From contig NZ_CP097289.1 in the NCBI RefSeq assembly GCF_023498005.1, positions 4,464,001 through 4,528,000 of the forward strand: a DNA stretch of 64,000 nucleotides. The letters run 5' to 3'. The notes beneath the pieces were generated by a model that saw nothing but the letters and a program-made list of their open reading frames with translations, was not told the origin of the DNA and made no database searches. The translations under genes and the position numbers were made by a program. Below are positions 27,717 to 52,509 of this stretch, piece by piece (position 1 is the stretch's first letter; the number at the start of each line of letters is the position of its first letter). The DNA is from Streptomyces durmitorensis (lineage in GTDB: Bacteria; Actinomycetota; Actinomycetes; Streptomycetales; Streptomycetaceae).

Positions 27717-27788
27717 GGGTCGCCGGTGGGGGCGGGGCGGGGTCGCCGGTGGGGACGGGGCGGGGTCGCCGGTGGGGACGGGGCCGCG
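27717..27788. repeat. Three 23-bp GC-rich tandem repeats
   Basis: CGCCGGTGGGG recurs at 27721, 27744 and 27767 with an exact 23-bp period, leading directly into the 92-bp inverted-repeat element. A single copy precedes the same element at about 32379. Confidence 0.75.
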
Positions 27789-27879
27789 CCGGTATGTCCG
27801 TACTCGCTATCGTCCGGTGACCGAGTTGCTGCTCCGGCGAGGGAGTCCGGCGAACCGTGCTCCGTGCGGACATACCGGC
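27788..27879 (+). repeat. 92-bp terminal-inverted-repeat element, copy A
   Basis: Bounded by perfect 13-bp terminal inverted repeats GCCGGTATGTCCG and CGGACATACCGGC. It contains the conserved inner strings CTCGCTATCGTCCGGTG and GAACCGTGCTCCG, with a variable centre. It is one of five copies of identical length in this window. Conserved flanks extend about 12 bp left and 28 bp right. Confidence 0.88.
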
Positions 27880-27911
27880 ACGTCCCCTCAGGAGCGCTGC
27901 CGTCTGCGAGC

Positions 27912-28118
27912 AATCGTTCGCGCAGGGGCGGATGCGGGGCAATCGGGCGGGTGGGCGGGAAAGGCTCGTTCGTCCAGGGGTGGATGCGGGGTGCCGGGCG
28001 GGCGGGTGGGAGAGGCTCGTTCGGCCAGGGACGGATCCGGAGTGCCGGGCGGGTGGGTGGGAGAGGCTCGTTCGGCCAGGGGCGGATCCGGGGTGAACGA
28101 GTGGGCAGGGGGCGGCGC
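27912..28118. repeat. 51-bp tandem repeat array 1
   Basis: CGTTCG followed by a CAGGGGCGGAT-like string recurs at 27915, 27967, 28018 and 28069 (period 51-52). The unit contains GGCGGGTGGGTGGGAGAGGCTCG. With the 23-bp repeats and copy A, it fills the 480-bp gap between the FUSC and DUF2786 genes; no gene is supported there. Confidence 0.8.
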
Positions 28119-28133
28119 CGCCCACCCTGCCGC

Positions 28134-29336
28134 CTAGGGGAGACGACGCCGGCCGGGGGCCACCTGCGCCTCGTCCGCCGCCGCCGTCCCATGGGCCCAG
28201 CCTTCGAGATCCGTCGCGCCCCGCACCCGGGTGGTGGTGGTCTCCGGAAACATCCGCCCGGTGTGGGACGTGACGGCCACGTCCCGCGCGGCCAGGACGG
28301 GCAGCAGCTCCCCCGCGTCCGGCGACTCCACGGTGACGTCCTGCGCCGCCGCGGCGAGGCGCGCGCCCAGGCGGTTCGCGTAGGCCAGCAGGAACGCCTG
28401 ACGGAACGTCTTCGTACGCTTCCGGCCGCCCGCCCGCTGCCCCGCCTCCGCCTTCGTCATCGCCGCCGTCCCCTGCACGAGGAGGGACGTGTGGAGGAGT
28501 TCGACCACTTCCAGGTCGGGTTCGAAGCCGACGACGGTCGAGAATCCGTACGCCTCGTTCCACACCGCGCGGCAGCGGTTCGCGGTGGCCACCGCGTCCA
28601 GGAGGATCGCCTTCGCCGTCTCGTACGGGGCATCCACGCCGATACGGCAGGCGCCGGGAGTGTCCTTGGCGTGGGTGCGGGACGCGAGCAGGGCCTCGTC
28701 GATGGTGTGCCTGGCCATCAGCTCCTGCGCCTTGGCGGTGAGCGCCTCCGCCTCCTCGGGGAATCCGGTCGCCTCGGCCTTGGCCAGGAGGGCGCGGATG
28801 CGGGTGAGGATGCGGGGCTCTTCGTGGCCGGGAGGCAGGGGCGCGTGGAGCGGGGTTCCGGGGGCGGGGCCCACCGGCTCGATCGCGGGGAGGCGCAGGA
28901 GGAGGCGGTAGAGGGCGAGGGTGGTGGTGGCCTGGGAGAAGCGGTCGGATCTGGGGCTGTCGTGAGGGGCGAGCTCGGCCAGCTGCGCCTGCCAGCGGGG
29001 CGGGAGTGTGTCGCCGTACCGCCTGGTCTCCGTGGTGATCAGCTCGGCGGCCAGCTGCGTCTGGTGGGTACGGTCGGTGCCGTGGGCGGTGTCGTCCTGG
29101 GCGCGGGCGACCATGCGCAGGACGTCCGCCGGCTGCCAGCCCCGCTCCCATGCGCGGCGCACCAGCTCCTCGCCCCTGCACCACAGTTCCGCGTCGGCCT
29201 CGGGGGCGGCCGCCAGGAGGGAGGCGCCGGTGTCGAGGCCCTCGACGCCGTCCGCGTACAGCGCTGCCGCGAACGCCTTGTCGATCGCCTCGGTGGCCTC
29301 GGTGGCCTCGGTGGCCTCGGTGGCCTGATCATCCAT
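28134..29336 (-). CDS. DUF2786 domain protein
   Basis: A 400-residue cytoplasmic protein. The DUF2786 segment is at about 175-215 (ILTRIRALLAKAEATGFPEE, then EALTAKAQELMARHTI). A long C-terminal region contains a conserved-looking CRAVWNEAYGFSTVVGFE. Function is unknown. The N-terminus carries TEATEATEATEA, encoded by 9-bp repeats at about 29287-29327. ATG 29336 is the only sensible start. It stands apart from its neighbours. Confidence 0.85.
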   Translation of the reverse strand: MDDQATEATEATEATEAIDKAFAAALYADGVEGLDTGASLLAAAPEADAELWCRGEELVRRAWERGWQPADVLRMVARAQDDTAHGTDRTHQTQLAAELITTETRRYGDTLPPRWQAQLAELAPHDSPRSDRFSQATTTLALYRLLLRLPAIEPVGPAPGTPLHAPLPPGHEEPRILTRIRALLAKAEATGFPEEAEALTAKAQELMARHTIDEALLASRTHAKDTPGACRIGVDAPYETAKAILLDAVATANRCRAVWNEAYGFSTVVGFEPDLEVVELLHTSLLVQGTAAMTKAEAGQRAGGRKRTKTFRQAFLLAYANRLGARLAAAAQDVTVESPDAGELLPVLAARDVAVTSHTGRMFPETTTTRVRGATDLEGWAHGTAAADEAQVAPGRRRLP

Positions 29337-29419
29337 GCGTCAAGGGTATGGCTGGCCATACCCCCAGGACGCCCCCCAGTGGTCGTGCCCGGCGGGGCCG
29401 TGGGCGGTTGGGTTGAGGC

Positions 29420-30193
29420 ATGACCTCAACTGCCGTACGGCTCACCGCCGTCCGCCGCCTCTACCGCGATGTGACCGCCCTCGACGGCGTCGACCTCGCG
29501 ATACGCGCAGGGACCTTCACCGCGATCATGGGCCCTTCCGGCTCCGGCAAGTCGACGCTGCTGCAGTGCGCGGCCGGGCTCGACCGGCCGACGTCCGGGA
29601 CGGTGGAGGTGGGCGGCACGGAGCTGACGGGGCTGAGCGAGCGCCGGCTGACCCTGCTGCGCAGGGATCGCATCGGCTTCGTCTTCCAGTCCTTCAACCT
29701 CCTTCCGTCACTGACCGCGGCCCAGAACGTCGCCCTCCCACTGCGGCTCGCGGGGCGCAGGCCCTCGCGTACGGAGGTGGCGGACGCGCTGGCCCGGGTG
29801 GGCCTCGGTGACCGTGCCCGGCATCGGCCCGGGGAGCTGTCGGGTGGTCAGCAGCAGCGGGTCGCGCTGGCGCGTGCGCTCGTCACGCGGCCTGCCGTGC
29901 TGTTCGGCGACGAGCCGACCGGCGCGCTCGACACGACGACAAGTCGTGAAGTGCTGCTGCTGTTGCGGGAGTTGGTCGACGGGGAAGGGCAGACCACCGT
30001 GATGGTCACGCATGACCCCGTGGCGGCGGCGTACGCGGACCGGGTGGTGTTCCTGGTGGACGGGCGGGTGGCCGATGAGGTGCTTGCGCCGGATGCGGGG
30101 GAGGTGGCTCGGCGGATGGCGGGGCTTGAGGTGGGGGGCGGTCGCGAGGCGGGCGGCTTTGGGGCGGGTTGCGGAGAGGTTGTTGCCCGATGA
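29420..30193 (+). CDS. ABC transporter ATP-binding protein (MacB/LolD type)
   Basis: A 257-residue ATPase with Walker A GPSGSGKST (about 39-47), signature LSGGQQQR, Walker B VLFGDEPTGALD and the H-loop MVTHD, typical of type VII (MacB/LolD/FtsE-like) transporters. The stop overlaps the FtsX-type permease start (ATGA at 30190-30193), so the pair forms one exporter or mechanotransmission complex. Confidence 0.93.
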   Translation: MTSTAVRLTAVRRLYRDVTALDGVDLAIRAGTFTAIMGPSGSGKSTLLQCAAGLDRPTSGTVEVGGTELTGLSERRLTLLRRDRIGFVFQSFNLLPSLTAAQNVALPLRLAGRRPSRTEVADALARVGLGDRARHRPGELSGGQQQRVALARALVTRPAVLFGDEPTGALDTTTSREVLLLLRELVDGEGQTTVMVTHDPVAAAYADRVVFLVDGRVADEVLAPDAGEVARRMAGLEVGGGREAGGFGAGCGEVVAR

Positions 30194-32358
30194 TTCTTCT
30201 CGCTTCCCTTCGTACGCGCTGGGCCGGACTGCTCGGCGCCTTCGTCGCCGTCGCGCTCGGCGTGGCGCTCACTGCCGCGATGGGGCTGGGGCTCGCCTCG
30301 ACGTTCAGTGCGCCGGAGCGGGAGCCCGTGCGGTTCGCCGGGTCTCCCGTGGTCGTTATGGGGCAGAACACCCTGACTGTCCCGGTGAAGCGGGGGCCGG
30401 ACGTCGAGTTCGTGTCGAAGCCGCTCGCTCATCCACACCCTGTGGATATCGAACTTCTGCGCGAGCTTCGACGCCTCGGGCCGGTCCAGCTGGATGGGGT
30501 GGCCGCATGGGACGCGGTGGGTGTGGATGCTCCTGTCGAGGAGGTGCGGGAGGCCGTCGAGGCCAGCGGCACTCGGGCTCGCGTCCTGACCGGGGGTGAC
30601 CGGCGGCTCGCCGATCCGGAGCCGGGGCGGGATGCGGAGGCGCTGGTGGCGGTGAACTCCTTCTTGGGAACGGCGGGCGGGGTGTCAGCCTTTGTCTCGG
30701 TTTTCGTCACGGCGTCCACCTTCGCCTTTGTCGTGGCGCTGCGGCGGCGGGAGTTCGGGCTGCTGCGGATGGCCGGAGCGACACCGGGGCAGGTGCGCAG
30801 GCTGCTGCTCGCCGAGGCGCTCGCGGTGGGGGTCGTGGCCTCCGGTGTGGGCTGCGTGCTGGGGGCGTGGGGCGCGCCGGTGCTTGCCGAGGCCTTGGTG
30901 GACGCGGGGATCGCTCCGGAGTGGTTCGGGATCGGCGGGGCGGTCTGGCCGTACCATCTCGCCTTCTGGGTCGGGGTTTCGGTGGCCTTCGCCGGGGCGT
31001 GGATCGCCTCGCGGCGGGCGGGGCGCGTGGGTCCCGTCGAGGCGCTGCGGGACGCGTCCGTCGACACCGGGGTCATGCCGTGGAGTCGGCGGATCGTGGG
31101 GGGCGCGCTGCTGGTGGCGGGGGTGGGGATGCTGGCCTTGACCCTGTGGACCGACCCGTCGGCGCTGATGAAGCGGAAGACGTACACGACCCAGCCGATG
31201 ATCCTGATCACCGCACTCGCCGCGCTCACTCCCCTTCTCGTACGTCCCGTCCTGCGCGCCGTCCGCCTGCCCGGCGCGGTCGGGCTCCTGGTCCGCGAGA
31301 ACTCAGCCGCGTCCGTGCGGCGCACGGCGGCCGTCGCGGCGCCGGTCCTGGTGACGGTGGCCCTCGCGGGCTCGCTGTTCGGCTCGGCTCAGACGGCGGG
31401 AGGGGCGAGGGCAGAGGAGGCGAGGGAGCGGACGAGGGCCGAACTGGTGGTGACGGGGGACGACTTGAGGCCACTGGGAGCGGGGAAGGTGGACGGGGTG
31501 AAGGTGGCTGCGTCGTCGGCCACCACGGCCGTGTACGTACGGGAGGAAGGTACGGCGCTGATCCGCTCGGAGGCGCGGGCCCTGAAGGATCCGGCGGCGT
31601 TCGCCGCGGTGTCGCGGCTGCCGGTGGTGGCGGGGGACGTACGCGATCTCGACGACCGGTCGATCGTCGTGAACGAGGAGTGGGAGCGGCGGCGGGTGGG
31701 TGAGCGGGTCGATGTCTGGCTCGGGGACGGCAGGCCTGCGCGGCTGCGGATCGTCGCGGTGCTCGCGCGGGGGACCGGGGACGGCGGGGCGTACGTCACG
31801 TCGGCCAATGCGGGGGCGGGGGCGGGGGCGCGGATCGACCGTATTGACGTGGGGCTGCGGGCCGGGGCGGACCGGGACGAGGTGGCGGCGGCGCTGCGGG
31901 GCTGGGGCGAGGGTGAGGGTGAGGGTGGGGCCGAGCTTCGGGTGCGGTCGGCGGAGGAATGGCTGGCGGACACGCACCCGGCGACGAAGCCGCAGACGCG
32001 GCTGGGGCTGTTGGTGCTGCTGGGTATCGCTCTGGTCTACACGGTCATCTCACTGGCGGGAACGCTGTTGATGGCGACGTCGGTACGGGGTCCTGAGCTG
32101 CGGTCGCTGCGGATGGCCGGGGCGACGTGGGGGCAGGTGCGGTGGGTGATCGCCGGGGAGTCGCTGCTTGCGGTGGCGGTGGGCGCGGCACTGGGCCTGG
32201 CGGTCACGCTGCTCAACCTGGGCGCACTGAGCGCGGGCCTCGCGCAGCTGTCGGCGCCGGCGGGGGTGGTGGTGCCCTGGGGGGTGGTGGGGGTGGCTGC
32301 GGGGGTGTGTGCGGTGGTTGGTGCGGGGGTGGGGGTGCTGGGGGTGCGGAGGCGCTGA
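30190..32358 (+). CDS. FtsX-like ABC permease
   Basis: A 722-residue permease with two FtsX blocks. A helix near the N-terminus is followed by a short extracellular segment and three helices (about 165-290); further helices lie near 310-350 and 400-420. An extracellular domain (about 430-600) leads to the last three helices (about 620-720). The repeated RMAGATxGQVR before each block is characteristic. Substrate unknown. ATG 30190 is coupled to the ATPase gene. No sensor kinase is adjacent, unlike bacitracin-type modules. Confidence 0.9.
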   Translation: MILLASLRTRWAGLLGAFVAVALGVALTAAMGLGLASTFSAPEREPVRFAGSPVVVMGQNTLTVPVKRGPDVEFVSKPLAHPHPVDIELLRELRRLGPVQLDGVAAWDAVGVDAPVEEVREAVEASGTRARVLTGGDRRLADPEPGRDAEALVAVNSFLGTAGGVSAFVSVFVTASTFAFVVALRRREFGLLRMAGATPGQVRRLLLAEALAVGVVASGVGCVLGAWGAPVLAEALVDAGIAPEWFGIGGAVWPYHLAFWVGVSVAFAGAWIASRRAGRVGPVEALRDASVDTGVMPWSRRIVGGALLVAGVGMLALTLWTDPSALMKRKTYTTQPMILITALAALTPLLVRPVLRAVRLPGAVGLLVRENSAASVRRTAAVAAPVLVTVALAGSLFGSAQTAGGARAEEARERTRAELVVTGDDLRPLGAGKVDGVKVAASSATTAVYVREEGTALIRSEARALKDPAAFAAVSRLPVVAGDVRDLDDRSIVVNEEWERRRVGERVDVWLGDGRPARLRIVAVLARGTGDGGAYVTSANAGAGAGARIDRIDVGLRAGADRDEVAAALRGWGEGEGEGGAELRVRSAEEWLADTHPATKPQTRLGLLVLLGIALVYTVISLAGTLLMATSVRGPELRSLRMAGATWGQVRWVIAGESLLAVAVGAALGLAVTLLNLGALSAGLAQLSAPAGVVVPWGVVGVAAGVCAVVGAGVGVLGVRRR

Positions 32359-32393
32359 GCGCCGGGGTCCGCCGGTGGGGTGGGCGGGGCCGC

Positions 32394-32485
32394 GCCGGTA
32401 TGTCCGTCCTCGCTATCGTCCGGTGCCCGCGGGGCTGCTTCGCCGCCGGAACGCCGCGAACCGTGCTCCGGGCGGACATACCGCC
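32394..32485 (+). repeat. 92-bp terminal-inverted-repeat element, copy B1
   Basis: The same structure as copy A, with one mismatch in the right terminal repeat (CGGACATACCGCC). It is the first of three copies in tandem at a 167-bp period. Confidence 0.88.
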
Positions 32486-32560
32486 ACGTCCCCTCACGAG
32501 CACTGCCGACTGCAGGTGCATCCGTGCTGCGGCGCCACTTGGCCTTGGGGGCGGGGCCGC

Positions 32561-32652
32561 GCCGGTATGTCCGTCCTCGCTATCGTCCGGTGACCGCGGA
32601 GCTGCTTCGCCGCCGGAACGCCGCGAACCGTGCTCCGGGCGGACATACCGCC
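32561..32652 (+). repeat. 92-bp terminal-inverted-repeat element, copy B2
   Basis: Starts exactly 167 bp after B1 and is nearly identical to it, including the right-end mismatch. The 75-bp spacer is duplicated too. Confidence 0.88.
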
Positions 32653-32727
32653 ACGTCCCCTCACGAGCACTGCCGACTGCAGGTGCATCCGTGCTGCGGC
32701 GCCACTTGGCCTTGGGGGCGGGGCCGC

Positions 32728-32819
32728 GCCGGTATGTCCGTCCTCGCTATCGTCCGGTGCCCGCGGGGCTGCTTCGCCGCCGGAGCGCCGCGAACCGTGC
32801 TCCGGGCAGACATACCGGC
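32728..32819 (+). repeat. 92-bp terminal-inverted-repeat element, copy B3
   Basis: Starts 167 bp after B2. Its right end carries the canonical ACCGGC, and it has one internal change (CAGACATACC). The sequence then passes into a 51-bp array. Confidence 0.88.
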
Positions 32820-32850
32820 ACGTCCCCTCACGAGCGCTCCCGACTGCCGG

Positions 32851-32980
32851 GTAACGGGCGGGTGGGTGGGAAAGCCTGTTCGGCATGGGGCGGATGCGGG
32901 GTGAACGGGCGGGTGGGTGGGAGAGGCCTGTTCGGCCAGGGGCGGATGCGGAGTGCCGGGCGGGTGGACCGGGAGGTCCT
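32851..32980. repeat. 51-bp tandem repeat array 2
   Basis: About 2.5 units of the family seen at 27912-28118, with TGTTCGG at 32878 and 32929 (period 51). It directly follows copy B3, as array 1 follows copy A. Confidence 0.78.
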
Positions 32981-33032
32981 TGCGGGGCCGCCCAGCGGGG
33001 GTGAGGGCAAGGACCGTCCAGCGAGCCGCAGG

Positions 33033-33872
33033 CTAACTGTCGCCGCCCTCGTCGATGAGGCGCCGTACCTCCCGGTCCACAAGCCCGAGCCGCGCCTCCG
33101 CGACAAGAGGAACCGCACGCCGATGCCGGCGGGCCTCATGGACGTCGATGTCGATCGTCACCAGGCCCGGCTCCCACTTCGGCGCCTGCGCCACCACCGT
33201 CCCCCGCGGGTCCACCACCCGCGAACCGCCCCAGAACGAAGCCCCGTTCTCGTTCCCGACCCGGTTCACGAAGACCACCCAGCACTGGAGCATGCGGGCC
33301 GTGTAGGACAGCAGCGTGTCCCAGTACAGGCCCGTGTCCATCGCCTCGGGATCCAGGCTCGCCGCGCTGTTCGTGGGAATGACGATGACCTCGGCACCGT
33401 CCTGCACCGCCAGCCACGGCAGCACCGGCTGCCACGCGTCATTGCAGATGAGGGTCGCCGCGCGCCCGTGCCCGCCCGGCAGGTCGTACGCACGCAGGTG
33501 CTGGCCGGGGCTGACGTGCTTGCGCTCCTCCCAGGCCAGGTAGTTGGGGAGGTACAACTTCCGGTGGCCATGGAGGAGTTGGCCACTCGCGTAGTACGCG
33601 GACGTGTTGTACGCGCGCAGACTCGTGTGTTCGTGCAGACCGACGATCACGTCGGGGCCGAACGTGGAGAGCTCCAGGAGGCGGGTGTCCATCGCGTCCA
33701 GCGACGTGTCCCGCTTCAGGCCGCCCAGGTGGTACCCGTGCAGACTCAGCTCGGGGAAGACGACGAGGTCGGCACCCTGCGCCGCCGCCTGGCCGATCTG
33801 GTCCCTGGCCTCCGCGAGGTTCTCGTCCACCTCGCCGAGGACACAGTCGGTCTGCGCAAGGGCCACTCTCAT
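33033..33872 (-). CDS. Carbon-nitrogen hydrolase (nitrilase/amidase superfamily)
   Basis: A 279-residue hydrolase with the catalytic triad of the superfamily: Glu in VVFPELSLHGY, Lys in HRKLYLPNY and Cys in LICNDAW. It probably hydrolyses an amide or carbamoyl substrate in the cytoplasm; the substrate is unknown. ATG 33872 (MRVALAQTD) is the family start. An open frame running on to 34049 crosses repeat sequence and is not coding. Confidence 0.92.
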   Translation of the reverse strand: MRVALAQTDCVLGEVDENLAEARDQIGQAAAQGADLVVFPELSLHGYHLGGLKRDTSLDAMDTRLLELSTFGPDVIVGLHEHTSLRAYNTSAYYASGQLLHGHRKLYLPNYLAWEERKHVSPGQHLRAYDLPGGHGRAATLICNDAWQPVLPWLAVQDGAEVIVIPTNSAASLDPEAMDTGLYWDTLLSYTARMLQCWVVFVNRVGNENGASFWGGSRVVDPRGTVVAQAPKWEPGLVTIDIDVHEARRHRRAVPLVAEARLGLVDREVRRLIDEGGDS

Positions 33873-33934
33873 GCCCCGAGCCTCGCAGCGCCGGAGACCC
33901 CTCGCATGTCGGGGACACCCGGAAGATGAACCGA

Positions 33935-34016
33935 CGGGGCAATCGGGCGGGAGATCTCGTTCGGCAAGGAAGGGCGCCGCGGGGTGAACGGGCGAGTGAG
34001 CGGGAAAGGCCCCCTC
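33935..34016. repeat. Degenerate copy of the 51-bp repeat family (array 3)
   Basis: CTCGTTCGGCAAGGAAGGGCG followed by GGGGTGAACGGGCGAGTGAGCGGGAAAGG and a second TCGGCGCAGG (period about 54) match arrays 1 and 2. It lies between the divergent hydrolase and polymerase genes; no 92-bp element accompanies it. Confidence 0.65.
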
Positions 34017-34118
34017 GGCGCAGGCGAAGCCCCCGGATGCCCCGCCCACCCCAGGGCACCCCCAGCCCCCGCAAAGCCCTCCGCAGGATTGTCAGTGCCT
34101 GGTGACAGACTCGGCCGC

Positions 34119-35834
34119 ATGACCGCAAGGTGGGCCCTCGCCGCCACCGAGGCCGGAGGCGCCACCCTCGCCCCCCTCGGGGAAGACGGCCTGCCCGCAG
34201 GCCCCACCCTGCACGAGCCGGACCTCGCCGGAGCCGTGCGCGACCGGCCCGACGTGAGCCGCTGGGTCTGGCGCTCCACCGCCGAGATCTATCCCGCCCT
34301 GTTCACCGCCGGCGTCCGCGTGGAGCGGTGCTATGACATCGAGGACGCCGAGCTCCTCCTCCTCGGTCACGAGGGCCGCCTCGGCGAGCCCCGCTCGGCC
34401 GCCGCCGCCTGGGCCCGGCTGCACAACGCCCCGGTGCCGGCCGACCCTCCCCCCAGAGCGGCAGCCCCCGGCGCCCAGGACTCCCTCTTCGAGCCCTCCC
34501 CCGTCACCTCCCTCCCCTTCGACGCCCTCCTGGAGGTGTATGCCGCGCAGCAGCGAAGACACGAGGCCGCCGAGCACCCCGGCAGGATGCGGCTGCTCAC
34601 GGCGGCCGAGTCGGCCGGGATGCTGGTGGCCGCCGAGATGAACGTGTCGGGCCTGCCCTGGCGCGCCGACGTCCACCACACCCTGCTCACCGAGCTCCTC
34701 GGCGAGCGGTATGCGGGCGGCGGCAGGAACGCGGGAGCAGCCGAGCCCCGCCGCCTCGCCGAGCTCGCCGACGAGATCTCCGCCGCCTTCGGCCGCCGCG
34801 TCCGCCCCGACCTGCCGAACGACGTGATCAAGGCCTTCGCGCAGGCCGGCATCAGGGTCAAGTCCACCCGGCGCTGGGAGCTGGAGGAGATCGACCACCC
34901 GGCGGTGCGCCCCCTCGTCGAGTACAAGAAGCTGTACCGGATCTGGACGGCGCACGGCTGGAGCTGGCTCCAGGACTGGGTGCGCGACGGCCGCTTCCGC
35001 GCCGAGTACACGCCGGGCGGCACCGTCAGCGGACGCTGGACGACGAACGGCGGTGGCGCGCTGCAGATCCCCAAGATCATCCGGCGTGCGGTCGTCGCCG
35101 ACCCCGGCTGGCGGCTCGTCGTCGCCGACGCCGATCAGATGGAGCCGCGGGTCCTCGCCGCGATCTCCCGCGACCGGGGCCTCATGGAGGTGGCCGGGAG
35201 CCACGAGGACCTCTACACACGCCTCTCGGACCGCGCGTTCTCCGGCGACCGCGACCACGCCAAGATCGCACTGCTCGGCGCCGTGTACGGGCAGACGTCG
35301 GGCGACGGCCTGAAGAACCTGGCGGCACTGCGCCGCAGATTCCCCGCCGCCGTCGCGTACGTCGACGACGCCGCGAAGGCGGGCGAGGAGGGCCGCCTCG
35401 TACGGACCTGGCTGGGTCGGACGAGCCCGCCGGCGGCCGGCGCGGACGACTTCGACGAGGCGGGCATCCCGCAGGAAGACCCTGCCGAACTGCCCTCCCA
35501 GGACGGCGAGTTCACTCCTGGGTATGCCTCGTCCAACACCCGCGCCCGCGGCCGCTTCACCCGCAACTTCGTCGTCCAGGGCAGCGCGGCCGACTGGGCC
35601 CTGCTGATGCTGGCCGCACTGCGTCAGTCCATCGCCGCGGCCGGTCTCCGCGCCGAGCTGGTCTTCTTCCAGCACGACGAGGTCATCGTGCACTGCCCGC
35701 AGGAGGAGGCCGAGACGGTCACGGCGGCGATCCGCGCGGCCGGCGACCTGGCGGGGCGCATCGCGTTCGGCGAGACGCCGGTGCGCTTCCCGTTCTCCGT
35801 GGCCGTGGTGGAGTGTTACGCGGACGCGAAGTAG
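34119..35834 (+). CDS. PolA-like DNA polymerase with degenerate 3'-5' exonuclease domain
   Basis: A 571-residue family A polymerase without a 5' nuclease domain. Polymerase motif A (DADQMEPRVLAAISRD), motif B (KIALLGAVYGQTSGDG) and motif C (FFQHDEVIVHC) are intact. The N-terminal 160 residues resemble a reduced exonuclease domain. Streptomyces carry this as a second PolA-like enzyme beside polA; its repair role is inferred. ATG 34119 is chosen because the upstream frame enters repeat DNA. It is divergent from the carbon-nitrogen hydrolase gene. Confidence 0.9.
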   Translation: MTARWALAATEAGGATLAPLGEDGLPAGPTLHEPDLAGAVRDRPDVSRWVWRSTAEIYPALFTAGVRVERCYDIEDAELLLLGHEGRLGEPRSAAAAWARLHNAPVPADPPPRAAAPGAQDSLFEPSPVTSLPFDALLEVYAAQQRRHEAAEHPGRMRLLTAAESAGMLVAAEMNVSGLPWRADVHHTLLTELLGERYAGGGRNAGAAEPRRLAELADEISAAFGRRVRPDLPNDVIKAFAQAGIRVKSTRRWELEEIDHPAVRPLVEYKKLYRIWTAHGWSWLQDWVRDGRFRAEYTPGGTVSGRWTTNGGGALQIPKIIRRAVVADPGWRLVVADADQMEPRVLAAISRDRGLMEVAGSHEDLYTRLSDRAFSGDRDHAKIALLGAVYGQTSGDGLKNLAALRRRFPAAVAYVDDAAKAGEEGRLVRTWLGRTSPPAAGADDFDEAGIPQEDPAELPSQDGEFTPGYASSNTRARGRFTRNFVVQGSAADWALLMLAALRQSIAAAGLRAELVFFQHDEVIVHCPQEEAETVTAAIRAAGDLAGRIAFGETPVRFPFSVAVVECYADAK

Positions 35835-35855
35835 CCCTGGTCCAGGACAGAGGGC

Positions 35856-38800
35856 TCAGCCCGCCCGCGCACCCGCCAGCAAGTCCTTCAGCTCGCCGAC
35901 GACCTCGCTGCTGTCCGTGCCGTCGAGCGCCTCGAGCGCCGCCCTCCACTGCGCGTACGCCTCTTCGGCCCGCCCCTCCGCGTACAGCAGGAGTCCGCTC
36001 TGGTGCCGGGCCAGGCCCGCCATGTGGGCGTCGGCCCGCTGCTCCGCACGTTCCAGGAGATCGGCGCACTCGCGCGCCGCGTCCTGTGGCCGGGACACCT
36101 CGCGCAGCGCGCGGACCATGCCGAGGCGCACCTTGGACTCGTTGTGCCAGTCCTCGGCCTCGCCGTGGATGCGCAGGCTCTCCTCGAAGTGCGTGAGCGC
36201 CATGTCCGGTTGGCCGAGGAGGAGGTAGGCGCGGCCGATGTCGCAGTGCGCTTCCTGGCGGAGGCCGGCGTGCGCGAGGGCCTCGCCGATGGCCAGGCTC
36301 CGCTCGTGGTGGTCGATCGCGGTGCGCGCGTCGGTGTGCTCGTAGATGTTGCCGAGGTGGCTGAGGGCGAAGGCCTCGCTCAACGGATCGTCCAGGGCTT
36401 TGGCCAGCTCCAGGCCCTGCCGCAGCGCCTCGGCCGACTCCTCGTAGCGGCCGAGCGCTTCGAGGAGCAGGCTGCGGTTGAGGACGGCGCGGTGCACGAA
36501 CGACACCCAGTCCAGCTCACGCCACAGGACCAGCGCCTCGTCGATCAGGGCGAGCGCCGCGCCGCTGCGCCCCGACACGTAGTTGAGGCCCGCGAGGTCG
36601 GTGAGGGCCTGCGCCTCGCCCGCGATGTCGCTCCACCGACGGGCCGCGGTCACCGCGAGGCGGTTCAGGAGGTCCGCCTCGCCGAGCCTGCCGCGGCGCT
36701 TGAGATACGAGAAGAAGCAGCGGACCAGCACGGGCAGCAGGACCGATTCGCGGCCGTGGCGGTCGGCGAGGGCGATGACGTTGGCGAGTTCCGTGTCGCC
36801 CCAGGCGAAGGCGTCATCGGTGGACATCGGCGGCACGGCGGGGACCGGGGAGCCGTCGGCGGTGTGCCGGGGCGGCAGCCGCTCGTCGACTCCCCGCAGC
36901 CGCTCGTCGACCCCCCGCAGTCGCTCGTCGACTCCCCGCAGCCGGTCGTCGCGGTCCAGGCCCTCCGGCATGATCGCCATCACGGTCTGCCGCGCCGACT
37001 CCGCGTACCACTGGAGCGCCGATTCCACGACGTCCGCCGCCCCCGTGCCGTCCTGGTGGGCCGCCTCCCTCGCGAAGTCGCGTACGAGATCGTGCGGGGC
37101 ATAGCGGCCGTAGGCCGTCTCTTCGAGGAGCGCGACGTCGACGAGCCGGTCGAGCGCGGCCCCCGCGCGCCACTCCTCCACGCCCAACAGCCGGGCGACG
37201 AGCGGGACTCCGTACGCCGGGAGATCCAGCGCCCCGATCACGGCGAGGGCGGCGGCCGCGTCCCGGTCGGACTCGCGCTCCGACATGCGCAGCGCGTCCA
37301 GGGCCACGGCGAGCGAGCGCCGCACGCTCAAGTCGTCGTGCTCCAGGTGATGCAGCCGCCCGCCGCTGACGGTGAGGAGTTCGGCGAGGGCGTCCGGGGT
37401 GAGCGCGCGGCGGGCGGCGAGGCGGGCCGCGATGATGCGCAGGGCCAGCGGGAGGCGGCCCGCGAGTTCGACCAGGGGGTGCCCGGCGTCGAGCCCCGCC
37501 CGCCCGGAGACGGCGCGCAGCAGGGCGATGCTGTCCCCCGCGGAGAGCGGCTCCAGCGGGAATCGTCCCGCGCCGTCGAGCGCGGTGAGCGGAGAACGGC
37601 TGGTGACGATGGTCGCGCAGCCGGAGCCCGCGGGCAGCAGCGGCCGCACCTGCGCGGCGGTCGCCGCGTCGTCCAGGACCAGCAGGGTGCGGGTGGGCGC
37701 GAGCAGCGAGCGGAGCAACGCGGCTGCGGCGTCCGGGTGTTCGGGGCTGTGGTTCGACTCGACCCCGAGGTCCCGGAGCAGGGCGGCGAGGGCCTGGTCG
37801 GGCGTGAGGGGCGTCATGCCCGGGGTGGCCCCGCGCAGATTGACGTAGAGCTGCCCGTCGGGGAAGTGCTCGCGCAGCCGGTGGGCCACGTGCAGGGCGA
37901 GCGCGCTCTTCCCCACGCCCGCCATGCCGGACAGAACGGCGACGGGAGGCGCGGAACCGGGCGCCCGGCCGAGCGCGTCACTGCTGCCGCCCTGCCCCGT
38001 GAGGAGCGGCGCCAGGGAGCGCACCACTTCTTCGCGGCCCGTGAAGTGGGGTGGGGATGGGGGGAGTTGAGCGGGTCGGGTGGATGCGGACGCGGGGACG
38101 GAGGCGGGGGCGGGGACGGAGGCGGAGGCGGAGGCGGGGACGGAGGCGGAGGCGGAGGCGGAGGCGGAGGCGGGGACGGAGGCGGAGGCGGGGACGGGGA
38201 CGGAGGCGGAGGCGGAGGCGGAGGCGGGGACGGAGGCGGAGGCGGAGGCAGGGGCGGGGGTTGGTACGGGTGCGGGTGCGTGGGCTGGTGCGGGAGCCGG
38301 TGCAGGGACGACGGCCGCGTCGGGGCCCGGCGCGGGGAGCGCTTCGGACTCCGGACCGACGGGGACTCCGGATCCCGGACCGACGGAGACACCGGATCCC
38401 GAACCGACGGGAACGCCGGATCCCGAGCCGACGGAGACACCGGATCCCGGACCGACGGGCGGTTGGGCCGGACCTCCGACCTCGGACCCCGAACCGACAG
38501 ACAGTCCGGCCGAACCCCCAACCTCGGACCCCGAACCGACAGACAGTCCGGCCGAACCCCCAACCTCGGACCCCGAACCGACAGACAGTCCGGCCGAACC
38601 CCCAACCTCGGACCCCGAACCGACAGACAGTCCGGCCGAACCCCCAACCTCGGACCCCGAACCGACAGACAGTCCGGCCGAACCCCCAACCTCGGACCCC
38701 GAACCGACAGACAGTCGGGCCGAACCCCCGACCTCGGACCCCGGGCCGGCGGTTACTTCGAGTTCCGGAGCAGGCCGCCCCGCCCCAGCGGCCCCGCCAA

Positions 38801-39752
38801 GCCCGGCCCCGGACACCACGCCACGCCCAGCCCCAGCGGCCCCGCCGAGCCCAGCCCCGGACGCCACACCACGCCCGCCCCCAGAACCCACACCAAGCCC
38901 CGCCCCGGACACCACGCCACGCCCAGCCCCGGAACCCACACCAAGCCCAACCCCAACGACCCCACCAAGCCCCACCGAAGCCGCCCCCGCAGGCTCCTGC
39001 AGCACCTCCCGATGCGCCTCCCGCACCGAGGCGCCCGGTTCCACGCCCAGTTCGTCCACCAGCCTGCGCCGCAGCTCGCGGTGGACGGCGAGTGCCTCCG
39101 CCTGGCGGCCCGTGCGGTGCAGCACCAGCATCAGCTGCCGGTGGAAGGTCTCCCGCAAGGGGTACTCGGCGACCAGTTCCGCCAGCTCCGGCACGAGCCC
39201 TCCGCCACCGGCACCGGCACCGGTGGCCAACTCCGCGTCGTAGCGCAGTTCGAGGGCGAGGAGCCGCGCCTCCTCAAGGCGCGGTACGAGCGCGTGGCCC
39301 GCCGCATCCGCGGGCAGCCCGCCCAGCGGTGCGCCGCGCCACAGGGAGAGCGCGCCGGACGCGGCGTCCGCGCAGCCGTCCCAGTCACGTTGCGCGTGCG
39401 CGGCACGGGCCTGCGCGACCAACTGCTCGAAGACCCGCACGTCCAGCTCACCGTCGGCCACCCGCAGCCGGTACCCCGGAGGCACCGCCCGCAGCCGTTC
39501 CGGATCGTCGAGGAGACGGCGCAGCCGCGTCACGTGGTTCTGCAGCGAGGCGTGCGCGGACGCGGGCGGCGCGCCGCCCCACAGTGCGTCCTTGAGGGCG
39601 TCGACGGATACCACCCGGCCCGGTTCGAGCAGCAGCGCGGCCAGCAGGGCCCGGCCCTTGGCGCTCTGCACGGGCTGGGGCTCGCCGTCGGCGTCGTACA
39701 CGGCAGGCGCGCCCAGGAGTCCGAATCGCAACCCGTCGCACCGCACGTCCAC
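35856..39752 (-). CDS. AfsR/SARP family regulator with very long repetitive linker
   Basis: About 1298 residues. Order of domains: OmpR-type winged helix (1-95), bacterial transcriptional activation domain (96-245), low-complexity linker (about 254-559), NB-ARC with P-loop GMAGVGKS (about 612), and a TPR region (about 970-1290). SARPs activate secondary-metabolism or morphological genes and bind direct repeats. GTG 39752 is preferred over the open frame to 39818, because GGGAGA lies just upstream and a palindrome lies beyond. The linker holds a 42-bp minisatellite and Ala/Ser hexamer repeats. RLRGVDE repeats occur near 36890-36960. No biosynthetic cluster is adjacent. Confidence 0.9.
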   Translation of the reverse strand: MDVRCDGLRFGLLGAPAVYDADGEPQPVQSAKGRALLAALLLEPGRVVSVDALKDALWGGAPPASAHASLQNHVTRLRRLLDDPERLRAVPPGYRLRVADGELDVRVFEQLVAQARAAHAQRDWDGCADAASGALSLWRGAPLGGLPADAAGHALVPRLEEARLLALELRYDAELATGAGAGGGGLVPELAELVAEYPLRETFHRQLMLVLHRTGRQAEALAVHRELRRRLVDELGVEPGASVREAHREVLQEPAGAASVGLGGVVGVGLGVGSGAGRGVVSGAGLGVGSGGGRGVASGAGLGGAAGAGRGVVSGAGLGGAAGAGRPAPELEVTAGPGSEVGGSARLSVGSGSEVGGSAGLSVGSGSEVGGSAGLSVGSGSEVGGSAGLSVGSGSEVGGSAGLSVGSGSEVGGSAGLSVGSGSEVGGPAQPPVGPGSGVSVGSGSGVPVGSGSGVSVGPGSGVPVGPESEALPAPGPDAAVVPAPAPAPAHAPAPVPTPAPASASASVPASASASASVPVPASASVPASASASASASVPASASASVPAPASVPASASTRPAQLPPSPPHFTGREEVVRSLAPLLTGQGGSSDALGRAPGSAPPVAVLSGMAGVGKSALALHVAHRLREHFPDGQLYVNLRGATPGMTPLTPDQALAALLRDLGVESNHSPEHPDAAAALLRSLLAPTRTLLVLDDAATAAQVRPLLPAGSGCATIVTSRSPLTALDGAGRFPLEPLSAGDSIALLRAVSGRAGLDAGHPLVELAGRLPLALRIIAARLAARRALTPDALAELLTVSGGRLHHLEHDDLSVRRSLAVALDALRMSERESDRDAAAALAVIGALDLPAYGVPLVARLLGVEEWRAGAALDRLVDVALLEETAYGRYAPHDLVRDFAREAAHQDGTGAADVVESALQWYAESARQTVMAIMPEGLDRDDRLRGVDERLRGVDERLRGVDERLPPRHTADGSPVPAVPPMSTDDAFAWGDTELANVIALADRHGRESVLLPVLVRCFFSYLKRRGRLGEADLLNRLAVTAARRWSDIAGEAQALTDLAGLNYVSGRSGAALALIDEALVLWRELDWVSFVHRAVLNRSLLLEALGRYEESAEALRQGLELAKALDDPLSEAFALSHLGNIYEHTDARTAIDHHERSLAIGEALAHAGLRQEAHCDIGRAYLLLGQPDMALTHFEESLRIHGEAEDWHNESKVRLGMVRALREVSRPQDAARECADLLERAEQRADAHMAGLARHQSGLLLYAEGRAEEAYAQWRAALEALDGTDSSEVVGELKDLLAGARAG
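38085..38260. repeat. GAGGCG/GGGACG hexamer repeats in the SARP linker
   Basis: Near-perfect 6-bp repeats encode alternating Ala-Ser with interspersed Val-Pro on the minus strand. Reading frame is preserved throughout. Confidence 0.85.
38491..38742. repeat. 42-bp minisatellite, six units, in the SARP linker
   Basis: GAACCGACAG recurs at 38491, 38533, 38575, 38617, 38659 and 38701, an exact 42-bp period. Each unit encodes the 14-residue GSGSEVGGSAGLSV on the minus strand. Units are almost identical, implying recent expansion or gene conversion. Confidence 0.92.
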
Positions 39753-39759
39753 GCCATCT

Positions 39760-39800
39760 CCCGCCAACCGTTGGCCACATGTTAGCGATCGGTTGGCGGG
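39760..39800. promoter_or_regulatory. Inverted repeat upstream of the SARP gene
   Basis: Perfect 11-bp arms CCCGCCAACCG (39760-39770) and CGGTTGGCGGG (39790-39800) begin 8 bp upstream of the GTG start. The left arm covers the ribosome site, so it could be an operator or an mRNA hairpin that occludes translation. Confidence 0.6.
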
Positions 39801-39910
39801 CCCTGATGGAATCAACACATCGGGCCCGGCCCCGCCGGTACTCGCGCCAAGCGCGTAACTCGGGGGAGTGTCACCGTTGTGGCCGGGCCCGCTCAGTTTC
39901 TGCGATGCAC

Positions 39911-39943
39911 CCTCAACTTCCTTACGGGGTGGAGAAGTTGAGG
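39911..39943. terminator. Hairpin between the sensor kinase and SARP genes
   Basis: Arms CCTCAACTTC and GAAGTTGAGG, extended by GCAC/GTGC with a bulge. It lies downstream of the kinase gene and is probably its terminator. The rest of 39801-40159 contains an imperfect tandem pair (TCACCGTATCCACGCG/TCACCGTACCCACGCG, 39976-40012) and no gene. Confidence 0.6.
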
Positions 39944-40159
39944 TGCTCGCGGAATCGAAGCAGCCGCGCGGGAGTCACCGTATCCACGCGAGCGTCACCG
40001 TACCCACGCGGCGAGCACCTGCCCGCGGACCCCGGCCACACGCACCGGCCTCCGGATTCCAGCACCAGGTGCTCACCGATCTCCCACCATTCGCTCACGC
40101 GGATGAGGCCCGCCATGACGCCCCGCGGTGGTATCCCCGGGTAACACCCGCGGCGCCCC

Positions 40160-42232
40160 TCATCCCGAAGGCAGCCGCACCGTGAACACCGCCCCCTCCC
40201 CCGGCGTGCTCCGCGCCGTCACCGTCCCGTCGTGCCCCTCCACCAGCTGGCGGACGATCGCGAGGCCGAGCCCGCTGCCGCCGGTCGCCCGCGTACGTGA
40301 CTTGTCCGCGCGCCAGAAGCGGTCGAAGACGTGCGGCAGGTCATCGGGATCGATGCCGGTACCGGTGTCGGCGACCTCCACCACCACCGCGTCGAGCGTG
40401 GCCCGGCAGCTGATCGTGACGCTGCCGCCCTCCGGGGTGTGCCGGACCGCGTTGGAGACCAGGTTGCCGATCGCCTGCCGGAGCCGGAGCGGGTCGGCCG
40501 TGAAACAGGGGTCGCCGAGCGTCGTCGCGCTCAGCCGTACGCCCGCCGCCTCGGCCCCGGCCTGGTGCGCCGCCGCGACCTGGTCCACGACGTCGGACGC
40601 GTGCACGGGCTCGCGGTGCAGCCGGAGCGTACCGGCGTCGGCGGCGGCGAGATCCTGCAGGTCATTGACGATGTGCTGGAGGAGCAGGGCCTCTTCGAGG
40701 AGCGAGGTGACGAGCTCGGGATCGGTGGCGACCACGCCGTCCTCGGCCGCCTCCAGCCAGCCACGGATGTTCGAGAGCGGCGTACGCAGCTCGTGCGCGA
40801 CGTCGCTCACCATGGCCTGGCGCTGGTCCTCAAGGGCCTTGCGGTGGGCGGCCATGTCGTTGAAGGCGTCGGCGAGCTGGCGGATCTCGCCCGCCGATCC
40901 CGCCGAGCGCGCCGTGACGGGTTCCGCGGCCTCGCCCGTCTTCATCCGCTGGGTCGCGGCGGTCAGCGCCCGCAGCGGGCGGGTCAGCCGGGTCGCGGCG
41001 AAGGCGGTCACGGCGACCGTCACCGCGAGGATGCCCGCCGAGAGGCCCGCGAGCCGGGTGGTGTTGGCCCCCGAGAGGCTGAACCGCGAGCTCTCGACCG
41101 CGCGGGCCACCGCGGTGCGCGAACCGTCGGAGCTGGTGACGAAGAGGAGCGCGGGCTCGGAGACGTACAGCCCGAGCTGCTCGCGCCGGGCGCTGCCCAC
41201 ACAGGCGGCGGTCTTGGTGTCGTACTCGTTGCCGACACGGCTGACACCGCCCGTCGGTTCAGGGACGTACGACGATGCCGAAGGGGTGCTCGTGGGCGTG
41301 CCCGGCTCCTTGGTCGGAACACTCGGCTCCGGTCCGACCCGGCCGCCGCCCGGCTCCGGTCCGACCCGGCCGCCGCCCGGCTCCACGGGCCTGTCCGTCG
41401 CCGTCTCCGCGTCCGTGGGGATGTAGCGCCCGGAATCACGGTCGAACACGCCCAGCGACTGCCACCACGTCAGATCGAGCCCGACCTTGACGGGCGGGGC
41501 GTCCCCGCGGCGCAGGCACGCGTTGGTGAGCTCGTTGAGCCGGTCGAGCGCCTTGCTCTCCGTACGGGTGGGCATGTCGAGCCGGTAGTCATGGCAGCTG
41601 GAGTCGAGGAGCTGGGACGGATCGTTGGGCGCCTCGACGCGCGGACGCCCGCTGGGCCCTTGGACGACCCGGGCGGAGACCCCGAGGTCCTGCATGCAGC
41701 CCACGATGCTCCCGGCCACCTTCCCCAGCTCTTTCCGCTCCGTCCCCGGCAGCCGGAAGGGCCCGACCGCACGCGGATCGATGCGGTCCTGGCCCCCGGC
41801 CTCCGCGTCCGCGCTCCCCGCACCGGCGGTCAACGCCCCGTCGACGGCCAGCGGATCGACGACGGCCGAGGCCTTGGACGGCAGCTCGTCACCGGAAGAC
41901 CCCTTGCCGCCCTTGCCTCCCTTACCCCGCGAGTCGGCGATGACGACACGGTCCTGCGTGGTCAGGGTGATGCGCCGCCCGGTCTGCCGGGCCAGCTCCC
42001 GCACGGTCTTCTCGGCGCCCTGCCACCCGGGCGCACCGGCCGCGAGGCCGAGCAGTTCGTCGTAGACACGGGCGTCGTCGGCGAGCACCTGCCCCTGTTC
42101 CTGCCGGATCGCGCCGGACGTGGTCTGCGCGGCCAGCCAGGCGGTGGCGGCGATCGAGACCACGGAGACGAGCACGGAGACGGCCAGCAGCCGGGGCAGC
42201 AGGCTCTTGCGGAACGGTATGTCACGCGCCAT
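40160..42232 (-). CDS. Sensor histidine kinase
   Basis: A 690-residue membrane kinase. TM1 is at about 12-32, a large extracellular sensor region of about 350 residues follows, then TM2 (about 390-412), HAMP, HisKA with phospho-acceptor His in VAHELRTPLSNIRG (about 479), and HATPase_c (GLGLAIVRQLVEGHDG). The sensor domain carries a 9-residue repeat GGGRVGPEP encoded by a 27-bp tandem duplication (41324-41377) and a Pro/Thr/Ser stretch. It overlaps the response regulator gene by 11 bp. Confidence 0.93.
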   Translation of the reverse strand: MARDIPFRKSLLPRLLAVSVLVSVVSIAATAWLAAQTTSGAIRQEQGQVLADDARVYDELLGLAAGAPGWQGAEKTVRELARQTGRRITLTTQDRVVIADSRGKGGKGGKGSSGDELPSKASAVVDPLAVDGALTAGAGSADAEAGGQDRIDPRAVGPFRLPGTERKELGKVAGSIVGCMQDLGVSARVVQGPSGRPRVEAPNDPSQLLDSSCHDYRLDMPTRTESKALDRLNELTNACLRRGDAPPVKVGLDLTWWQSLGVFDRDSGRYIPTDAETATDRPVEPGGGRVGPEPGGGRVGPEPSVPTKEPGTPTSTPSASSYVPEPTGGVSRVGNEYDTKTAACVGSARREQLGLYVSEPALLFVTSSDGSRTAVARAVESSRFSLSGANTTRLAGLSAGILAVTVAVTAFAATRLTRPLRALTAATQRMKTGEAAEPVTARSAGSAGEIRQLADAFNDMAAHRKALEDQRQAMVSDVAHELRTPLSNIRGWLEAAEDGVVATDPELVTSLLEEALLLQHIVNDLQDLAAADAGTLRLHREPVHASDVVDQVAAAHQAGAEAAGVRLSATTLGDPCFTADPLRLRQAIGNLVSNAVRHTPEGGSVTISCRATLDAVVVEVADTGTGIDPDDLPHVFDRFWRADKSRTRATGGSGLGLAIVRQLVEGHDGTVTARSTPGEGAVFTVRLPSG

Positions 42233-43004
42233 GGCGCGCCGCCCCGACGGCCGCGCCCGTGAGCTTGTACCCGACGCCGAAGACGGTCACGAGATGCCGG
42301 GGCCTGCGCGGATCGACCTCGATCTTCTTGCGCAGATTCAGGATGTGTACGTCGACGGTGCGCACGGATATGTACCCGGACGACCCGTGGATACGATCGA
42401 GCAGCTGGGGCCGTGTGAACACCCGCTCCGGCTCCGCGGCCAGCGCGGCGAGCAGCTCGAACTCCCCCGGCGTGCACTCGACGAGCCGCCCGTCGACGGT
42501 CACCTCATGCCGTACGGGATCGACGGAGAGCCCGCCGACCCGCAGCACACGCGGCACGGCTTCGGCGCCCTCGACGACCGGATGGTGCGTGCCCTGGGAG
42601 CGCCGGAGCAGCGTACGGACTCGGGCCATCAGCTCGCGCGGGCTGTACGGCTTGGTCAGATAGTCGTCGGCCCCGAGATCGAGGCCGAGCAGCAGATCGT
42701 CCTCGGTCGTGCGGGCGGTCAGCATCAGAATCGGAATCCCGACGACGGATCCGCTCGCGCTCCCGCCCCCGTTCCCGCTCCCTCCCCCGTTCCCGCCCCG
42801 CAGGACGCGCGTGACACCGAGCCCGTCGACCCGCGGCATCATCACGTCGAGCACGAGCAGGTCCGGCGGCCTGCGCCGCACCTCGTCGATCGCGGCGCGC
42901 CCGTCGTGGACGACGGCGACCGTGTGGCCCTCGCGCTCCAGATAGCGGCGGACCAGCTCGGCCTGTTTCTCGTCATCCTCCGCGACCAGGACAAAAGCGC
43001 ACAT
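42222..43004 (-). CDS. OmpR-family response regulator with a Gly/Ser insertion in the receiver
   Basis: A 260-residue regulator. The receiver (about 1-140) has acidic pocket AEDD, phospho-Asp in LLVLDVMMPRVDG, Thr in ILMLTAR and Lys in YLTKPY. The winged helix (about 160-250) is intact (YISVRTVDVHILNLRKKI). About 18 Gly/Ser/Asn residues (around GGNGGGSGNGGGSASGS) are inserted between VTRVLR and IPILML, where the receiver normally has a short loop. The start is ATG 43004 (MCAFVLVAEDD); ATG 43016 and an alternative start at 43037 also lie in frame. It is first in the operon, before the kinase. Confidence 0.93.
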   Translation of the reverse strand: MCAFVLVAEDDEKQAELVRRYLEREGHTVAVVHDGRAAIDEVRRRPPDLLVLDVMMPRVDGLGVTRVLRGGNGGGSGNGGGSASGSVVGIPILMLTARTTEDDLLLGLDLGADDYLTKPYSPRELMARVRTLLRRSQGTHHPVVEGAEAVPRVLRVGGLSVDPVRHEVTVDGRLVECTPGEFELLAALAAEPERVFTRPQLLDRIHGSSGYISVRTVDVHILNLRKKIEVDPRRPRHLVTVFGVGYKLTGAAVGAARHGA

Positions 43005-43103
43005 GGTCTGGAGCATAAGCGGGGCGGGCCGGGCCAAACGGAATCCGGACAGCGGCCTGACAGGATCCTCATAACTCCTCGGCCCGCCCCCGAGGACGCC
43101 GCC

Positions 43104-43502
43104 CTACCCCTCGTGAGGCACGACCACGACCTGGAAGTCGTCCTCATAGACGATCCGCCCGGGATCCGATGACCGCACCACCCGGCACTCGATGCCGTGG
43201 GCGTCAAGAATCTCCAGATAGCCGGGTACGCGCTCGATGAGATGGGTGGCGGTGACCTTGAACCAGGCCACGGCGCAGGGCGTGACGTCCTGGTCGTAGA
43301 CGGTGGGGTCGACCTTCGACGGGATCGGATACGCGGCGTCGTACCAGTCGTTGTTGGCCCGCCGGAACCGCTCCTGCTCCGGCGTCAACTTCCCTTCCCT
43401 GGCAAGCCCGTTGACGAGGACGAAGACCCCTGGGAAGTGCCCTCGCGGATGGCGCACGGGCGACTCGTAACGAACGTAAGAGGCATCACTGGCATCACTC
43501 AT
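43104..43502 (-). CDS. Conserved hypothetical protein
   Basis: A 132-residue soluble protein, MSDASDASYVRYESPVRHPRG onward, with VFVLVNGLAREGKLTPEQERFRR and FKVTATHLIERVPGYLEIL. I do not recognise a named domain. The ATG at 43502 is favoured over an in-frame upstream codon at 43547. Composition and codon use are those of a normal coding gene. It lies upstream of the response regulator on the same strand, 100 bp away. Confidence 0.72.
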   Translation of the reverse strand: MSDASDASYVRYESPVRHPRGHFPGVFVLVNGLAREGKLTPEQERFRRANNDWYDAAYPIPSKVDPTVYDQDVTPCAVAWFKVTATHLIERVPGYLEILDAHGIECRVVRSSDPGRIVYEDDFQVVVVPHEG

Positions 43503-43602
43503 CGCGGCATCCTCGCACCGACCGCCCGGAGCAACGACGTATCCCAATCACTGGATCGCGGCCCCCACACACCCGCAGTCGGTAGCGCTCGCGAGGGGAC
43601 GT

Positions 43603-43694
43603 GCCGGTATGTCCGCCCGGAGCACGGTTCGCGGCACTCCCTCGCCGAAGAAGCCGCACGGCCACCGGACGATAGCGAGGACGGACATACCGGC
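43603..43694 (-). repeat. 92-bp terminal-inverted-repeat element, copy C
   Basis: An inverted copy with perfect 13-bp terminal repeats and the same conserved inner strings on the minus strand. It lies between two divergent genes. Conserved flanks (GAGGGGAC on one side, GCGGCCCCGCCC on the other) match the other copies. Confidence 0.88.
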
Positions 43695-43800
43695 GCGGCC
43701 CCGCCCACAAGACGGACCAGCACCGCACGCAGCACCAGACGCACACCCATACGGCGCCCTCACCTCGCGCCCACTCCCCACCACCCCGAAGGTGGTCCGC

Positions 43801-52419: not shown

Positions 52420-52509
52420 AAGCAAAAGCCCCAGGTCACGGCGAGTGAGTCCTGGGGCTTCCACAGAGCCGCCTTCGGGATTCGAACCCGAGACCTACGC
52501 ATTACGAGT
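52418..52509. repeat. attR: right direct repeat overlapping intact tRNA-Thr
   Basis: Identical to 49453-49544 at 90 of 92 positions. It begins in the integrase stop codon and ends in the anticodon loop of the tRNA. Confidence 0.88.
52426..52460 (-). terminator. tRNA-Thr terminator
   Basis: 10-bp arms AAGCCCCAGG/CCTGGGGCTT with T-rich sequence beyond on the minus strand. An identical copy lies in attL (49461-49495). Confidence 0.8.

Follow-up and report, generated by a model that had tools for sequence, protein, structure and literature searches.

A widespread, structurally constrained family of intergenic hairpins in Streptomyces durmitorensis and related genomes

The window analysed here is a stretch of 64,000 nucleotides from the 9.7-Mb chromosome of Streptomyces durmitorensis (contig NZ_CP097289.1, positions 4,464,001 to 4,528,000; G000:C1:4464001-4528000). 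It carries five copies of a short hairpin element that belongs to a real, widespread and structurally constrained family. The initial annotation had reported five 92-bp copies, and their positions and strands are borne out; a covariance-model scan of the window returned the same five copies and one further weak match (E 0.29). In window coordinates, the copies are as follows.

27780..27887, plus strand: hairpin copy 1, with its 92-bp core at 27788-27879; 99.9 bits with covariance model R1
32386..32493, plus strand: hairpin copy 2, core 32394-32485; 89.8 bits with R1; unit 1 of a head-to-tail array with a period of 167 bp
32553..32660, plus strand: hairpin copy 3, core 32561-32652; 94.3 bits with R1; unit 2 of the array
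32720..32827, plus strand: hairpin copy 4, core 32728-32819; 91 bits with R1; unit 3 of the array
43595..43702, minus strand: hairpin copy 5, core 43603-43694; 99.6 bits with R1

The genes beside the hairpins have diverse functions, and a shared neighbour function was dismissed for that reason. Pfam was run on six window neighbours, two of which gave no match, and the neighbours include genes presumed, by eye from their sequences, to be rsmA, Ku and MreB. The hairpin arm GCCGGTATGTCCG, allowing up to two mismatches, matches the window 14 times against 3.4 expected by chance, a count reached by none of 100 shuffles.

Across the whole chromosome, a pattern taken from the left part of the element finds 63 copies (28 on the forward and 35 on the reverse strand; reversed control 0), spread over 1.24-8.68 Mb with no evident pattern. 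The 42 scored places of the array tally comprise 30 single copies and 12 head-to-tail arrays (5 double, 5 triple and 2 quadruple); the list used for replication orientation holds 43 places. The flanking conservation noted in the initial annotation is real and wider than its estimate of about 130 bp: over the genome copies it spans about -30 to about +41 relative to the 92 bp, giving a unit of about 165 bp (about 27758-27920 for copy 1). The 20 tandem linkers measure 74-76 bp, and because the unit is about as long as the tandem period, the arrays look like whole units abutting without a spacer. A core of 92 bp, described at first as constant, is found in 54 of the 64 copies measured here; seven have 93 bp, one has 91 bp and two lack the right arm, while relatives range from 89 to 97 bp with one of 111. 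The gaps that hold the elements are often of low complexity, and some hairpins directly adjoin, on their left side, simple repeats such as (CTGT)n and GGTGCC arrays (left flanks of L016 and L007).

The family extends well beyond this genome. A pattern scan of GTDB genomes yielded 42 stretches, which come from eight named species or strains of Streptomyces and have arms that vary (GCCGGTATGTCCG, GGGGGTATGTGCG, GGAGGTATGTACG and others) and mostly remain complementary within the frame GGGGCCG...CGTCCCC; the GGGGGTATGTCCG group has one mismatched arm position. The covariance-model scan of Streptomyces genomes proposed in the initial annotation found relatives in 34 of 150 genomes with R1, and two more subfamilies stand out among the matches, II (GGGGTGTCCGTCCTCGG...CCGCTGCGGGCGGACACCCC) and III (GGTACATCCGCCCG...GCATTCGATGTACC). 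A second model, R2, was built mainly from subfamily II and included no sequence of the S. durmitorensis genome. It matches 65 of 297 Streptomycetaceae genomes (52 Streptomyces, 12 of genus g11 and one of g17), which represent 3 of the 17 sampled genera, and it also recovers the S. durmitorensis copies (12/12 scored candidates). Copies per genome are lower bounds, with 5, 25 (R1) or 12 (R2) candidates scored in each, depending on the scan, and these limits also apply to the genomes with no match, 116 of 150 for R1 and 232 of 297 for R2. An origin from plasmids or phages was dropped, as a plasmid and phage search with one query each for subfamilies I and II gave no match.

No earlier description of the hairpin family was found in the literature searched, in which six element strings occurred in none of the papers covered and word searches gave no title or abstract on the family; most subscription papers and all supplements lay outside this scope. 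Passages of PMC4681348 speak broadly of short palindromic transcripts in S. coelicolor, passages of PMC1590033 do not treat Streptomyces, and all five mentions of Streptomyces found in PMC2864571 lie within the reference list. An RNA survey of 50 genomes defines, in the sections consulted, a class named MRSC for multi-copy motifs, especially those with inconsistent gene orientation (PMC11109978). The sole example shown there, MRSC-65-2, has one long covarying stem like the hairpins described here; unlike them, it has UYCCGG repeats and occurs in diverse phyla (PMC11109978). Surveyed genome number 36 seems from the motif names to be a Streptomyces, and the hairpin family may be among the 250 unnamed repeat candidates of that study (PMC11109978).

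About 107-114 nt long, the element is a stem-loop with 23-27 pairs in its stem, conserved ends and conserved imperfect positions. The 13-bp terminal inverted repeats first described are present, albeit perfect in only two of the five window copies (27788 and 43603); in the 32.4-kb array, the right arm of every copy contains a single mismatch. The actual stem is longer: in alignment A1 (62 elements), columns 1-24 pair with columns 91-117, interrupted at three mismatched or wobble places (5/113 and 8/110 mostly mismatched, 22/93 wobble in 48/62). Changes on both sides of a pair affect nine pairs and 100 cells in A1, against 38.0 in shuffled alignments and at most 25 with a slid partner. In A2 (40 elements of subfamily II) the figures are 24 cells, 5.2 and at most 5. 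Several pairs take three or four forms in different species, and the number of further pair types in A1 (13 versus 13.3 shuffled) shows no excess. These compensatory changes in two subfamilies support selection on the hairpin as a folded structure, as the initial annotation had suggested, and the concern that the element might be private to one strain and free of covariation was not borne out. One inner covarying pair is C/G in 53 of the 54 copies of 92 bp here and A/T in the copy at 27788; A/T is also found in G550, in the MZ04 copy (L128) and in L066 of S. durmitorensis. The absence of a conserved open frame likewise stands, with a synonymous share of changes near chance in all six frames over 54 copies. 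A coding reading that starts MSVLAI... from the left-arm ATG was ruled out by this near-chance share together with the single-base length variation.

Covariation of this kind is also what would be expected of a structured RNA, such as a dispersed small RNA or an element of 3′ untranslated regions (3′-UTRs). Subfamily II adds near-fixed G-U pairs on the plus strand (U24-G96 in 40/40 and G29-U91 in 38/40), and 30 of its 40 single folds are lower on the plus strand. However, subfamily I has no strand preference (plus lower in 34/62) and the minus strand gives the lower consensus fold in A1 and A2 alike, such that neither strand appears to be clearly favoured by predicted folding. Rfam at gathering thresholds gave only a tRNA in the window, and at E up to 1 no match on 11 loci. 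That sole Rfam match in the window is a tRNA-Thr (CGT) at 52466-52540 on the minus strand. Gene context, judged with a simple codon-position gene caller, places 112 of 115 groups outside predicted open reading frames across all loci and three inside. In S. durmitorensis, 12 groups lie along and 9 against two co-directional genes, with 10 between convergent and 6 between divergent genes; the corresponding counts in other genomes are 14, 22, 22 and 13. Hairpin orientation takes no account of the genes, which counts against a structured RNA, and a terminator scan around 27788, the sole region scanned, found no terminator-like site. A role as 3′-UTR or terminator was rejected on these two grounds, and a structured RNA in general appears improbable.

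A different kind of evidence comes from the positions of the hairpins. Masked flanks were compared for 144 loci; in 15 of these, 8 from G040, the detector saw no element and no score could be given. Elements occupy the same intergenic site in 34 cross-genome pairs involving 49 loci altogether; the pairs are partly dependent (the WAC 01529 element L127 matches two sites here 6 kb apart), and 22 more locus pairs with matching flanks failed the same-site rule. Two of the 34 were automatically flagged as opposite in orientation, yet the strands agree for both. Some same-site pairs join subfamilies I and II, for example L050 with L252 of G026. Of the 42 named stretches, 10 occupy a site also used in S. 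durmitorensis when scored automatically, and reading by hand adds L128, L144 and L145; chance would give well under one by the author's estimate, from about 43 places and several thousand gaps.

Copies at these shared sites are barely more alike than random ones. Mean identity is 78.0% for same-site pairs, 76.6% for random cross-genome pairs and 88.2% within genomes (the lower value of each pair), and in 31 of 34 pairs the same-site figure is smaller than the within-genome one. At one site shared by G026 and G014 the flanks are 87% and the elements 77% identical, whereas copies within the two genomes are 96% and 93% identical. Among close relatives, G44 and S. huasconensis keep a locus signal (0.94 versus 0.84 in two pairs). 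Since same-site copies scarcely exceed random cross-genome pairs and copies within a genome are more alike, the hairpins at old positions appear to have been homogenized in each genome, a signature of concerted evolution. An identical pattern would arise if elements had repeatedly been replaced at these sites. Recent jumping offers a poor explanation for concerted short dispersed repeats at shared sites, and so does drift.

The site of copy 1 was followed in 392 genomes. Thirty loci were read, including that of the window, and seven of the 30 could not be placed by both flanks. Among the 22 other loci with both flanks, the element is present in the gap in G550 (L326), and the detector found none in the remaining loci. 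S. longisporoflavus has the closest flanks (94% and 83%) and lacks the hairpin, while one of the G-rich repeats that stand to the right of copy 1 is retained, which suggests loss by deletion. In WAC 01529 this gap contains no hairpin, and one lies across the neighbouring gene on its other side. S. longisporoflavus gave one R1 match among 25 scored candidates. Its loci L101, L112, L145 and L325 have hairpins that are shortened, degenerate, truncated or missing, and the S. durmitorensis counterparts are intact.

High copy number, inverted repeat ends and near-identity within a genome are also features of a miniature inverted-repeat transposable element (MITE), that is, a short derivative of an ordinary transposon that is not autonomous. 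Recent jumping would not be expected to leave sites shared between genomes with flanks 67-96% identical, and conservation reaches past the inverted repeats. No target duplication was noticed by reading, where the extended conservation makes the ends indistinct, and the single site surveyed, 27788, yielded no clean empty site. A longer, gene-containing relative was not met in the copies read, with no dedicated search made for a full-length parent. A MITE is a very improbable explanation.

Repetitive extragenic palindromic (REP) elements are usually attributed to their RAYT transposase. The Y1 transposase model PF01797 has no match in the S. durmitorensis genome, a search that a RAYT too diverged for the model could escape. 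It matches 46 of the 150 genomes; the 34 R1 carriers divide into 16 with and 18 without a match, and the high-copy genomes G000, G026, G093 and G014 all lack one. Such carriers indicate that a Y1 transposase is not needed for keeping the hairpin family, and with a REP-like family persisting in genomes without RAYT, another route of maintenance seems to exist. A RAYT or IS200 partner was rejected as absent here, though it is somewhat commoner among carriers, and there may have been some past link between hairpin and Y1 transposase.

In the parts of the sources consulted, REP elements, bacterial interspersed mosaic elements (BIMEs) and REP doublets forming hairpins (REPINs) are short, high-copy, intergenic palindromic repeats with mismatch-keeping hairpins, arrays and species-specific sequence, all of which recall the present family (PMC3116915, PMC8266576, PMC8049555, PMC6006769). 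Recognition of E. coli REPs requires the conserved mismatches, according to the relevant section of PMC8266576. The hairpins at the ends of IS200/IS605 insertion sequences are described as likewise imperfect, and these insertion sequences as acting on the lagging-strand template (passages of PMC6006769). The present hairpins differ from the latter in standing alone, with no TnpA in the S. durmitorensis genome. As a high-copy extragenic hairpin the family resembles REP/RAYT systems, from which it differs in having neither a RAYT gene or other Y1 transposase in the genome nor a GTAG foot, in its length of about 110 nt and stem of 23-27 pairs, and in occupying cross-species sites with concerted sequence.

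Orientation was also compared with the direction of replication. Hairpins run with the fork in 16/19 cases in G323, 16/20 in G343, 12/15 in G335, 10/13 in G292, 8/13 in G376 and 7/12 in G427; pooled over the six genomes this is 69/92, with p 1.7e-6 on an assumption of independence that does not hold. These counts suggest that hairpins in some genomes lean with the fork, which would fit an IS200/IS605-type action on the lagging-strand template. The lean is also compatible with a functional chromosomal site, for instance for a nucleoid, topoisomerase or segregation protein, that is selected at old positions and never mobile, with gene conversion matching the copies to one co-evolving protein. 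Sites and orientation shared between genomes, arms that change jointly between species and the diversity of neighbours all speak for such a site. No such protein was found, however, many genomes have no match (116/150 and 232/297, from counts that are lower bounds), the 27788 site of S. longisporoflavus indicates that a site can be lost, and the copies scattered over 1.24-8.68 Mb follow no evident pattern. This explanation is regarded as rather unlikely.

Of the options in the initial annotation, a small RNA is disfavoured by Rfam, terminator and orientation results, a MITE is weak at best, and a hairpin acting as DNA, which it had put as a protein-binding cruciform, fits best when placed near REP and REPIN sequences. 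The preferred reading, with a probability of roughly 0.55, is a repetitive extragenic hairpin family that acts at the DNA level and is REP/REPIN-like without a known REP transposase. When single-stranded, mainly in the lagging-strand template, the element would fold into a hairpin. An enzyme that processes hairpins, or recombination initiated at this structure, could then copy one version over the others by gene conversion, local duplication would produce the arrays, and the arms would stay matched to the recognising protein of each species. For the host, the element may serve as a chromosomal site or be a largely selfish sequence.

Several observations weigh against this reading. No enzyme or binding protein emerged as the partner of the hairpin, the ends in A1 and A2 (GGGGCCG and CGTCCCC) lack the GTAG foot, and Y1 transposases are commoner in carriers (16/34) than in non-carriers (30/116; p 0.03). 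The six complete, many-copy genomes were picked after the fork lean had been seen in part of the rows, the fork border was set at the chromosome midpoint, and the sites are related by descent. In S. durmitorensis, where dnaA lies at 4.825 Mb, co-orientation is 28/43 (p 0.066), and in WAC 01529 it is 3/10, in the opposite direction. Within-genome identity here is raised by the collection of copies with the sequence of S. durmitorensis itself. The both-sided changes of one species are counted repeatedly, and with non-independent sequences the shuffles overstate significance. Finally, the left arm is almost invariant here, yet 21 of 54 copies deviate from the consensus at one position of the right arm, which implies that sequence is kept more strictly than pairing.

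A broader proposal, still tentative and well short of even odds, is that Streptomycetaceae possess an undescribed chromosomal system based on an enzyme or binding protein that is specific for the hairpin and is not a RAYT; in each species it would maintain the similarity of tens of dispersed sites through conversion at replication. The sites would endure over the genus, with recognition sequence and protein evolving jointly, and the system could be drive-like or a replication-coupled chromosome mark. S. durmitorensis, with 63 near-identical copies, and S. longisporoflavus, with few intact ones, offer a direct contrast in gene content for the missing factor.

A second family of G-rich repeats, with a GGGYGGGTGGGYGGG core and a 51-bp period, accompanies the hairpins and has 49 matches in the genome (reversed control 0). 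Its members in the window are listed below.

27945..28074, plus strand: three G-rich repeats starting at 27945, 27996 and 28047, period 51 bp, to the right of hairpin copy 1
32856..32934, plus strand: two G-rich repeats starting at 32856 and 32907, to the right of hairpin copy 4
33990: a further repeat of the same G-rich family

In the S. durmitorensis genome these repeats are linked to the hairpins in direction. They occur within 500 bp to the right of 34 of the 63 hairpins and to the left of none, and 26 of 34 G-rich groups lie within 1.5 kb to the right of a same-strand hairpin, with none to the left and none opposite. The repeat is a possible G-quadruplex. By reading, a similar G-rich motif stands to the right of the hairpin on the opposite strand at L095 and L102 of WAC 01529. 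Repeats of the GGGGCGCGGGGAAC type, which are common in Streptomyces genomes, appear shortly after the hairpins at L084, L098 and L286 of G128.

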